A program made the translations under genes and the position numbers. Positions 12,722 to 60,289 of a stretch of 64,000 nucleotides of DNA are shown here, one piece after another (positions within the stretch are counted from its first letter, which is position 1; the number at the start of each line of letters is the position of its first letter). The notes below the pieces were generated by a model. That model searched no databases. It was not told the origin of the DNA and worked only from the letters and a program-made list of their open reading frames with translations. This DNA comes from Verrucomicrobiia bacterium. GTDB lineage: Bacteria; Verrucomicrobiota; Verrucomicrobiia; Limisphaerales; JADLHS01. The DNA lies in NCBI GenBank assembly GCA_011525685.1, contig WYBW01000074.1, forward strand, positions 1 to 64,000, read 5' to 3'.

Positions 12722-13101
12722 GCGCGGTCGAATTGTGTGGCAAGTTTGCAGCGGCGCGAAGGCGCGAAGCAATGAATTTCCCGATCACGGCACCGGGCCG
12801 GGCGCATCTTGACCGAACCACCATAGAGCAGGTATCGGCTCACCGTAGCGCAGGTTTCCCAACCTGCGGTATCGCCGATTTCCAATCGGCTGGCTGTGCG
12901 AAGTAGCGCGGTCTGCGGGTTGGAAGCCCGCGATATCCCGACCTATCGGGAGAAGTCTGCGCTACGGTGGTTCCACCAAGATGCGCCCCACGGGGCTTCA
13001 AGATTTGGCCAGTGCGCGTTCGGTTGGCAGGCGGAGGGAAATCCGCGATGGGTGGCAGTTTGCGCTTTGCTCGCGGCGCGCGGCGTGGTTGAGTCTTGCG
13101 C
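12722..13101. other. intergenic stretch holding a palindromic element
   Basis: This divergent intergenic region between the oxidoreductase and the DUF554 gene carries the 129-bp element described at 12841-12969. I see no gene in it and no convincing promoter. Confidence 0.55.
12841..12969. repeat. 129-bp palindromic element with perfect 13-bp ends
   Basis: Ends CACCGTAGCGCAG (12841-12853) and CTGCGCTACGGTG (12957-12969) are perfect inverted repeats. Nested stems follow: GCAGGTT/AACCTGC (12850-12867, loop TCCC), GCCGATT/AATCGGC (12874-12890, loop TCC), a GCGGG/CCCGC stem and CCCGA/TCGGG with loop CCTA. The GTAGCGCAGG-TTTCC core is shared with the elements at 24601 and 60012. Confidence 0.85.
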
Positions 13102-23116: not shown

Positions 23117-24538
23117 TCATGAGTCAGCCGAGTTGTCCTCTCGGTCTCCGGCCGGTTTCTGCTCCGCCAACCGATAGCGGAGGTAATCCCGCGTCACCCC
23201 CAACACCCGCGCCGCGGCGGAGACATTGTTGCCGGTCTGTTGCAGGGCATGTTCGATCAGTCGCCGGATGGCTCTCTCCAAGTCGAAACCCTGATCGGGA
23301 AACCGGAAGTTCGGGTTGAACCAGCCATCCTCAGCCGGAGGCATCGGGGTGGACACGGCCCCGTGCAGATTCCCGAAATTCAGCTCCGCGCCGTCCTCAA
23401 AGACGACCGCGCGCTCGAGTTCGTGTGCCAGTTCGCGAACGTTGCCCGGCCAGGGATAAGAGGCCAGCCGGCGGCGACCCTCCGGACCGATTGCCTTCAG
23501 CGGCACGCGATGTCGCCGGCAGAGCCGTTCCAACAGCAGTTCCGCAAGGTTGAGGACGTCATCTCCGCGCAGCCGAAGGGGCGGGATTTGAACACGAAAC
23601 AAATCCAAGCGGTGATAAAGGTCCTCGCGGAACAGCCCGGCGCTGACCAGTTCCTTGAGGTTCTTGTTGGTGGCCGCGATCACGCGTACATCAATGGGGA
23701 TTTCCCGCGTTCCCCCCAACCGGCGAATGCGATGATCCTCAATCGCCTTGAGCACCTTGGCTTGAAGACCGGCGGAAAGGCTCGGCAACTCATCCAGGAA
23801 CAAAGTTCCCCCATCGGCGGCCTCAAACAATCCCATCCGGGCCGTCCGCGCGTCGGTGAACGCGCCGCGTTCATGACCGAACAACTCGGACTCCGCCAGG
23901 GTCTCCGGCAGGGCGGGACAATTCACCTCCACCAGTGGCCGGTCGGCGCGCGGCCCTTGCTGGTGCAGCCAGCGGGCAATCGTGGTCTTGCCGGTGCCGG
24001 TTTCTCCCTCGATGAGCACCGGCGGCAACTGTTCCCGCACCCGACGATCGGCCGCGATGATCTTGTCCAGTTGCTGTTGAACGGCGGCCAGTGATGCTCC
24101 GAAGAAAAGGCTCTCGCCGCCCTCGCTCTGGCGACGGTGTTCATCCAGGCGGGCGGCTTGCTTGGATTTGCGCGCCCGTGCAATGACCAATGGCAGTTCG
24201 GCGACATCGAACGGCTTCACGAGGTAATCCAGCGCGCCCAACCGCATCGCCTCGACCGCGCCGGTTACGCCCCCCTCGGCGGTCATGACAATGACACCAC
24301 AGTTTGGGCCGAACTCTTTGGCCTCCAGCAAACTCGTGCCGCGGCCGTCGGGCAGGTTGACATCGAGCAGCACCAAGTCGAAGCCGAACGCCTTCAGCGA
24401 TTGCCGCGCCGCCTGCAGGGTGCCGGCGCCCGTGACGTCGGCGCCAAGCGATTCCAAGTGTGCCGTGATTTGTTTGCGCAGCAGCGATTCATCCTCGACC
24501 ACCAGGACGTCCAGCCCCGCCAGCAGCTTTGTTGGCAT
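23117..24538 (-). CDS. NtrC-type sigma-54 activator with receiver domain
   Basis: 473 residues from the ATG at 24538, just before the receiver domain (LDVLVVEDESLLRKQITAHL); a longer frame upstream only translates repeat DNA. Receiver at ~7-120 with phospho-acceptor Asp in LVLLDVNLPDG. AAA+ domain at ~150-380 with Walker A GETGTGKTT, GTLFLDELPSL and the sigma-54 contact loop written GAFTDA rather than the usual GAFTGA. A Fis-type helix-turn-helix closes the protein (NNVSAAARVLGVTRDYLRYRL). It should switch on sigma-54 promoters after phosphorylation, most likely by the histidine kinase encoded downstream. Confidence 0.93.
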   Translation of the reverse strand: MPTKLLAGLDVLVVEDESLLRKQITAHLESLGADVTGAGTLQAARQSLKAFGFDLVLLDVNLPDGRGTSLLEAKEFGPNCGVIVMTAEGGVTGAVEAMRLGALDYLVKPFDVAELPLVIARARKSKQAARLDEHRRQSEGGESLFFGASLAAVQQQLDKIIAADRRVREQLPPVLIEGETGTGKTTIARWLHQQGPRADRPLVEVNCPALPETLAESELFGHERGAFTDARTARMGLFEAADGGTLFLDELPSLSAGLQAKVLKAIEDHRIRRLGGTREIPIDVRVIAATNKNLKELVSAGLFREDLYHRLDLFRVQIPPLRLRGDDVLNLAELLLERLCRRHRVPLKAIGPEGRRRLASYPWPGNVRELAHELERAVVFEDGAELNFGNLHGAVSTPMPPAEDGWFNPNFRFPDQGFDLERAIRRLIEHALQQTGNNVSAAARVLGVTRDYLRYRLAEQKPAGDREDNSADS

Positions 24539-24600
24539 ACCGCACTTATGCCGCGCCCGGCCCCGTGGCGCAAGCCTTCGGCGCACTATGACTGTTCTGC

Positions 24601-24812
24601 GGGCGCATCTCAGTTTATTGCAGGCAGGCATTCCTGGCGTAGCGCAGGTTTCCCCACCTGCGGTATCGCCGACTTCCAGTCGGCAGGCCCAGGCACGGCG
24701 GGGCAGGCCAGGAATTCGCCGCGGTTGCGGATTGGAAATCCGCGACCCGGCAGACTGGAAGTCCGCGCTACGGCATCGCCTCGGCCCCCCTGCAAGAAAA
24801 TGAGATGCGCCC
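24601..24812 (-). mobile_element. 212-bp MITE-like element with target-site duplication
   Basis: Perfect 12-bp terminal inverted repeats GGGCGCATCTCA (24601-24612) and TGAGATGCGCCC (24801-24812). The similarity extends to about 24 bp, with TTTATTGCAGG against TTTCTTGCAGG. A direct repeat CTGTTCTGC lies immediately outside both ends (24592-24600 and 24813-24821). The interior holds GTAGCGCAGG and a series of small stems with TTCC-type loops. It is homologous along its whole length, in opposite orientation, to the element at 60012-60222. It encodes no transposase, so it would be mobilised in trans. Confidence 0.85.
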
Positions 24813-24842
24813 CTGTTCTGCGGGCCGGCCCTCAAAAACCCA

Positions 24843-24920: not shown

Positions 24921-25076
24921 ATGTCACAGCATCGCAGTCTGCGCGCGGCGGCCACCTTGGGTGGCAAGCGCAATGTGCTCAAGCGCTTCGAGCGCGTCGA
25001 GCTGCTCAAGAAACGCGGTCAATGGAAGGCCGGCGACCGCATCACGGGTTTGCGCAAGACCAAGCCCGAGGCGTAA
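24921..25076 (+). CDS. small basic protein of the Verrucomicrobia/Chlamydia type
   Basis: 51 residues: MSQHRSLRAAATLGGKRNV, then LKRFERVELLKKRGQWKAGD and a GLRKTKPEA end. This is the small, highly basic family (TIGR04137-like) found across Verrucomicrobia and relatives and thought to be associated with the ribosome or nucleic acid; the true role is not established. GAGAG 5 to 9 bases before the ATG is one of the few recognisable ribosome-binding sites in the window and fixes the start. Strong expression would be expected. Confidence 0.88.
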   Translation: MSQHRSLRAAATLGGKRNVLKRFERVELLKKRGQWKAGDRITGLRKTKPEA

Positions 25077-59938: not shown

Positions 59939-60011
59939 AACACGTTGGAGCGGGAGCATAGGGGCGGGGTTATACCGTGGCAAGCGTGGAGGCGCCTCGA
60001 TGCTGCCGCGC

Positions 60012-60222
60012 GGCGCATCTCATTTTCTTGCACGGGGCGTCGGGCCGACGTCGTAGCGCAGACTTCCAGTCTGCCGGATCGCGGATTTCCAACCCGCAAA
60101 CGCTGCGAACTCCTGGCTTGCCTCGCCTTGCCTTGGCGAGCCGACTGCAAGTCGGCGATACACCAGGTTGGGAATCCAGCGCTACGCCAGGAATCCCGCC
60201 CTGCGATAAACTGAGATGCGCC
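60012..60222 (+). mobile_element. 211-bp MITE-like element, second copy
   Basis: Perfect 11-bp inverted ends GGCGCATCTCA (60012-60022) and TGAGATGCGCC (60212-60222). It aligns end to end with the reverse complement of the 24601-24812 element: TTTTCTTGCA next to the left end, GTAGCGC, ACTTCCAGTCTGCCGG, GCGGATTTCCAA, CGATAC and CGCTACGCCAGGAAT occur in the same order. No direct repeat flanks it, so its duplication is lost or it moved by recombination. A truncated transposase lies 70 bp away. Confidence 0.82.
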
Positions 60223-60289
60223 ACCTCCCGGTTCAAGCCCAACCCCAGCCGGCGGCTGCGGCATCTCGACCACCAGATGAAAAGGGTTG

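Follow-up and report, generated by a model that had tools for sequence, protein, structure and literature searches.

An abundant MITE of probable ISKra4 type, with a REPIN-like interior and insertion near promoter-like sites, in a Verrucomicrobiia bacterium

The stretch of DNA analysed here, called the window, comprises positions 1-64,000 of contig WYBW01000074.1 (labelled C50) of a Verrucomicrobiia bacterium (assembly GCA_011525685.1, 6.73 Mb in 199 contigs). Between the genes of an NtrC-type response regulator and a small basic protein, the window carries a miniature inverted-repeat transposable element (MITE), the interior of which resembles a REPIN, i.e., an inverted pair of repetitive extragenic palindromic (REP) sequences. 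The locus contains the following features:

23117-24538, reverse strand, NtrC-type response regulator with Response_reg, Sigma54_activat and Fis-type HTH_8 domains, start 62 bp from the element
24592-24600, target-site duplication, left copy, CTGTTCTGC
24601-24812, forward strand, whole MITE, 212 bp, non-coding, ISKra4-type ends
24601-24612 and 24801-24812, perfect 12-bp ends, GGGCGCATCTCA and TGAGATGCGCCC
24601-24629, forward strand, left terminal inverted repeat, first 12 nt perfect
24638-24772, reverse strand, putative REPIN core, formed by an inverted pair of GTAG-headed REP arms with two hairpins per arm (loops TTCC/GGAA)
24639-24684, forward strand, left REP arm, GTAGCGCAGGTTTCCCCACCTGCGGTATCGCCGACTTCCAGTCGGC
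24727-24772, reverse strand, right REP arm, reverse complement containing GTAGCGCGGACTTCCAGTCTGC
24784-24812, reverse strand, right terminal inverted repeat
24813-24821, target-site duplication, right copy, CTGTTCTGC
24921-25076, forward strand, small basic protein MSQHRSLRAAATLGGKRNVLKRFERVE..., start 108 bp from the element

A preliminary description of the locus had reported a 212-bp element with perfect 12-bp ends and a 9-bp direct repeat on both sides, devoid of any protein and separated by 62 and 108 bp from the regulator and the small basic protein. All of this was borne out, with the start codons at 24538 and 24921. The inverted arms extended to 29 nt at 86% match. The direct repeat reached 13 nt if the adjoining GGGC was included, and the boundary of the duplication was set at 9 bp because other copies place it there. 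The secondary structure of the MITE was strong (z = -8.7 for the DNA fold and -7.8 for RNA), and the Rfam search of the window gave a tRNA as the sole match. The stem-loops with TTCC-type loops mentioned in the description were present (TTCC/GGAA); their identity as a separate mobile repeat, the putative REPIN, had been missed.

The genome search, in which the best 40 candidates were scored, revealed at least about 40 full or near-full copies, 93-97% identical to the window copy, a count which is a lower bound. The usual length was 213 bp, the window copy being one base short, and the mean pairwise identity of 31 aligned copies was 95.8%. The end sequence, with at most one mismatch, was matched 212 times in the genome in comparison with 28 times for a reversed control pattern, which together with the matches of 93-97% identity indicates that these ends do not recur by chance. 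The sequences flanking the copies were unrelated to one another. A duplication was present in all 27 copies with both flanks readable: in 25 of them it was 9 bp long with no more than two mismatches (none in 15), and in two it was a perfect 8 bp. The signature of transposition postulated for the window copy was recovered at every testable copy by the comparison of flanks proposed as a check. Because the flanks are unrelated, duplications accompany every testable copy and an autonomous relative has the same ends (see below), the element at 24601-24812 is a mobile, non-coding MITE. A genome of the same genus (G001) contained none of these copies and only weaker matches at the level of the core, so the MITE looks to have multiplied recently in this lineage.

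On contig C42 (L029, 115-327), a single 8-bp AGTCTGGC lay between two successive MITE copies, and these 8 bp recurred on the outside; the pair represents a second insertion into one target, next to a resident copy. A MITE end was located about 114-174 bases from the start of twelve contigs (C48, C51, C80, C99, C106, C107, C125, C137, C156, C157, C169 and C174), which indicates that the assembly breaks inside the MITE and helps explain why many contigs of this metagenome assembly end there. A 400-kb sample of large contigs contained one core copy and was not used for densities, the repeats lying probably in the fragmented contigs.

The search of family genomes with the 12-nt end revealed one end pair in the opposite orientation 1.5 kb apart, in G004. 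It delimits a complete insertion sequence (IS) of 1500 bp (L045, 1036-2535) with 29/29 identical end bases GGGCGCATCTCAGTTTCTTGCAGGGTCGT and the duplication AACCTGATC, and the first 12 nt of the window MITE are those of its left end (L045, 1036-1064). The single open reading frame of this IS encodes an ISKra4-family transposase of 482 aa, which scored 208.5 bits against NCBIfam ISKra4 (cut-off 205), the next family reaching 56.9 with a cut-off of 200. ISKra4 homologues from G056, G054 and G024 had similar ends (GGGCGCAGATCA, GGGCGCATTTCA and GGGCGCATCTCA, respectively) and exact 9-bp duplications (TTCACACTC, TTCACAAGC and CTTGGGGAG), the boundary of the G024 element being placed by eye two bases inside the reported repeat. 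Since the IS of a same-family relative combines the ends and the 9-bp duplication of the MITE with an ISKra4-family transposase, the MITE was classified as non-autonomous and ISKra4-type; it was filed as a relative of the ISKra4 elements and not as an IS because it is non-coding and lacks a transposase gene of its own. The preliminary description gave no named MITE with these ends and no family name, which is supplied here by the ISKra4-type ends. IS1, IS256, IS903 and IS1595 were first candidates based on the 9-bp duplication and GGG ends and were set aside once the ISKra4-type IS was found.

An exact scan of 84,980 species genomes with the 22-nt end placed almost all of the matches listed in metagenome-assembled genomes (MAGs) of Verrucomicrobiota, some of the MAGs being filed under other or loose names. 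The elements delimited by the matches listed were of MITE size (93-384 bp) or, in a few cases, 1.06-1.47 kb long, and the majority had 9-bp duplications. The abundant, recently multiplied mini-transposon named here has relatives in numerous genomes of this phylum, which has been little studied.

Guerillot et al. (2014, PMC3942029) described ends of 18-39 bp and target duplications of 8-9 bp for ISKra4-group elements, some of which insert upstream of sigma-A promoters. The duplications of the MITE copies fall within this range. To describe the insertion sites, the outward flanks were aligned at the element end and a sigma-70-like promoter score was calculated for each position. The promoter score peaked with the -35 box at offset 27 from the element end, i.e., 18 nt beyond the duplication, with a left-side mean of 0.95 at the peak in comparison with -6.24 over all offsets, and a weaker peak was observed at the same offset on the right side. 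A score of at least 3 at offset 26-28 on either side was found for 21 of the 27 copies, in comparison with a mean of 3.7 and a maximum of 8 copies at other offsets. The same was true for 31 of 45 elements of other MAGs, which formed an independent set (mean 6.1, maximum 11). A -35-like box was located at 27 nt in all three elements of the window, i.e., the MITE at 24601 and two relatives. The candidate sites and the two relatives are listed below:

24545-24573, reverse strand, TTGCGC-17-CATAAG, candidate sigma-70 promoter for the NtrC-type regulator, -35 box at 27 nt, weak score
24843-24871, forward strand, TTGGCA-17-TACACC, candidate sigma-70 promoter for the small basic protein, -35 box at 30 nt, score 6.6
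60011-60223, reverse strand, full-length older member of the MITE family, with 85.4% identity to the window MITE
59983-59955, reverse strand, promoter-like site of the 60011 element, TTGCCA-17-TATGCT, -35 box at 27 nt, score 12.0
12800-12988, forward strand, related element from a different subfamily, with ends GGGCGCATCTTG and a damaged REPIN core
12772-12743, reverse strand, promoter-like site of the 12800 element, TTGCTT-18-CAAACT, -35 box at 27 nt, score 6.9

At random window positions, for one given offset and side, a score of 2.9 was reached in 2.4% of cases and a score of 9 in 0.07%. A scan for the strict consensus found no promoter at the locus. As judged from these predicted promoters, the insertions are aimed at a fixed distance from promoter-like sites, and the placement in a promoter region noted in the preliminary description is real, following the rule of spacing to the -35 box. 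The full-length homologue placed there at 60012 in the opposite orientation was also recovered, its exact span being 60011-60223, and the third element, at 12800-12988, with the duplication CACCGGGCC/CACGGGGCT (7/9 match), had been absent from that account. The possibility that the 24601 and 60011 elements carry the REPIN in opposite orientations, and hence represent two captures, was rejected, the alignment showing one lineage with the element inverted.

The arms of the core form an inverted pair GTAGCGCAGRYTTCC... with two hairpins per arm. In relatives belonging to the order, the matches covered element positions of about 38-172 and excluded the ends. In the genome under study, REPIN units were located on both sides of a gene for a REP-associated tyrosine transposase (RAYT) on contig C1 (L102, 1102-1839), encoding a Y1 transposase (Y1_Tnp) of 245 aa, and the MITE core was 84% identical to the RAYT-flanking REPIN over 135 nt (E = 2e-37). 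The RAYT gene ends in a TAG stop codon that also belongs to the GTAG tag of the following REPIN. The core also occurred alone, without the MITE ends: among 76 exact copies of the REP half, 27 were near a known MITE end and about 49 were not, the latter number being approximate as the list of MITE ends is incomplete beyond contig C174. The closest RAYT homologues in relatives (58-64% identity) were mostly flanked by REP of the same type with other loop sequences. Because of the GTAG-headed inverted pair, the copies flanking the RAYT gene and the standalone copies, the core is considered on sequence grounds to be a REPIN of GTAG-tagged palindromes, with this RAYT as its probable partner (PMC3116915, PMC3733652).

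Within one REPIN, the hairpin loops tended to covary between genomes (TTCC/GGAA, TGGC/GCCA and TTGC/GCAA) with the stems kept (L031-L042 and L221-L227, in relatives), which looks like co-evolution with the RAYT. Seven further Y1 transposase matches in the genome were not accompanied by this REP, at least one of them (L098) being flanked by another palindrome family.

Taken as a whole, the element is very probably a non-autonomous MITE of ISKra4 type (prokaryotic Mutator-like, p-MULT 4) with a REPIN interior and promoter-steered insertion. An ISKra4-type DDE transposase acting in trans would recognise the MITE ends, move the MITE in this lineage and make the 9-bp target duplications. The transposase would steer insertion in such a way that the -35 box of a sigma-70-type promoter comes to lie some 27 nt from an element end, on either side of the element, most likely through a promoter-bound protein or the shape of the promoter, so that insertion would take place just upstream of the promoter. 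The interior would be an inverted pair of GTAG-headed REPs like those that RAYT tyrosine transposases disperse; after its entry into the MITE, by whichever route, the REPIN would be copied into a promoter-upstream site with each transposition. The inserted element would replace the sequence upstream of about -62, bringing strong secondary structure with it, and may in this way affect the neighbouring genes.

Several observations weigh against this reading. No ISKra4 transposase was found in the 199 contigs of this assembly by protein and profile searches; since many contigs end inside the MITE repeat, the assembly may lack a multicopy IS, or alternatively the transposase source may have been lost. 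No clean orthologous empty site was found when 12 joined flanks were searched against family genomes: in the four cases with usable matches followed in relatives, homology stopped near the insertion point, a clean site being missing because gene order differs in the relatives. The promoters are matches to an E. coli-type matrix and not mapped transcription starts; six of the 27 copies had no box at offset 26-28, no promoter was detected at this offset for the complete IS of G004, and the box at 27 nt from the window copy was weak (score 2.9). The spacing of 27 nt (18 beyond the duplication) is also unlike the 13-17 nt of the published criterion (16 nt for p-MULT 3), given for elements with nearly perfect ends, which show targeting on either side (PMC3942029), although the duplication may be counted differently.

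The insertion sites at L001, L015, L017 and L028 had homology to relatives on one side only, which means that the tested insertions lie at or near synteny breakpoints.

If the repeat were mobilised only by the RAYT, as a REPIN or a bacterial interspersed mosaic element with extended flanks, the outer inverted repeats would be mere flanks and the direct repeats coincidental. The core indeed agrees with this in sequence, head tag and RAYT linkage, but outside the core the ends are the same in all copies, and a duplication of 9 bp (or 8 bp) directly adjoins these ends (27/27). Transposition of the IS200 type makes no target duplication, and REPINs without MITE ends exist separately, which makes such an explanation scarcely credible. 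The reverse situation, with the standalone cores being remnants of old MITEs that lack their ends and not an independent REPIN family, could draw on the decayed copies at 60011, 12800 and L022 (about 2006-2218). It is quite improbable, as most alignments from other genera end near positions 36-39 and 171-175, the standalone units are clustered and directly beside the RAYT gene, with its stop codon overlapping the GTAG tag, and about 49 of the 76 exact REP halves lie away from known ends.

It is also unlikely that the MITE was moved by a related Mutator-like family (ISLre2, ISH6 or IS256) instead of ISKra4. The failure of the protein and profile searches to find an ISKra4 transposase in this assembly would fit this, and ISLre2 shares the 8-9 bp duplications and promoter targeting (PMC3942029), yet the only transposase seen between matching ends was of ISKra4 type. 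Finally, the fixed spacing might be a by-product of selection, with insertion taking place anywhere in intergenic DNA and the survivors leaving promoters intact. Several inspected sites were indeed just upstream of genes, but purifying selection gives a minimum distance and not a peak at 26-28 nt, found on either side in two independent sets, and this origin of the spacing is hence improbable.

The non-autonomous ISKra4-type MITE with its putative REPIN interior resembles several known systems. Its ends (those of a relative's IS that passes NCBIfam ISKra4), its duplication and its promoter targeting are like those of ISKra4-group IS, which in contrast to the MITE contain a transposase gene. 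Verrucomicrobiota are outside the phylum list given for p-MULT 4, and MITEs are unmentioned there (PMC3942029). The core agrees with REPINs and GTAG REPs with RAYT (PMC3116915, PMC2817692, PMC3733652) in its GTAG-headed palindromes forming inverted pairs, in being dispersed and in clustering at a RAYT gene, and GTAG repeats were already known in Verrucomicrobia (O. terrae). It differs from known REPINs in having two hairpins per REP arm and in forming the interior of a DDE-type MITE. The bacterial MITEs NEMIS, ERIC, RUP and Nezha (listed in PMC3733652) are likewise short and non-coding, with inverted ends, many copies and strong secondary structure. To our knowledge, and judged without sequence comparison, the ends of the MITE and the ISKra4-type transposase are not theirs.

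ISKra4 elements, their targeting, REPINs and MITEs are each already known, and it is the combination which is new to the literature searched. This literature, with most subscription papers and ISfinder outside it, contained no description of a promoter-targeting ISKra4-type MITE with a RAYT-type REPIN interior, nor of REPs inside MITEs, MITEs in Verrucomicrobia, ISKra4-family MITEs or REPIN cargo. With a second mobile repeat as the interior, DDE-type MITEs and RAYT/REPIN repeats, usually studied apart, become linked, and a testable route for REP sequences into promoter regions is offered.

MITEs with the same ends elsewhere contained different cores, mostly hairpin arrays. In 13 of 19 core families, more short hairpins were found than in about 95% or more of same-length pieces from their own loci (42 in all in comparison with 4.3 expected), the 19 families not being all independent, as the count separated some cores with weak similarity. 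Certain cores also occurred without the ends or near RAYT genes, namely the CTCATTAACACC type (L098, L225 and L267) and the GCTGC type (L038 and L269). Repeated capture of REPINs by the MITEs would fit these data. Six core families had no hairpin excess, and REPIN-like cargo is hence common and not universal. It is possible, as a tentative extension, that ISKra4-type MITEs with promoter targeting have repeatedly acquired, in various Verrucomicrobiota, an interior consisting of RAYT-type REPINs that differ in sequence. One vehicle would then serve two unrelated transposase systems and deliver REP hairpins at a set position upstream of the -35 box, maybe rewiring regulation genome-wide.

A further MITE type with ISKra4-like ends and another hairpin core, TCGTCGCGCTGCGACGA, was found at L060 and L262 (4960-5145), in the same genome. 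It is related to the MITEs of G011.
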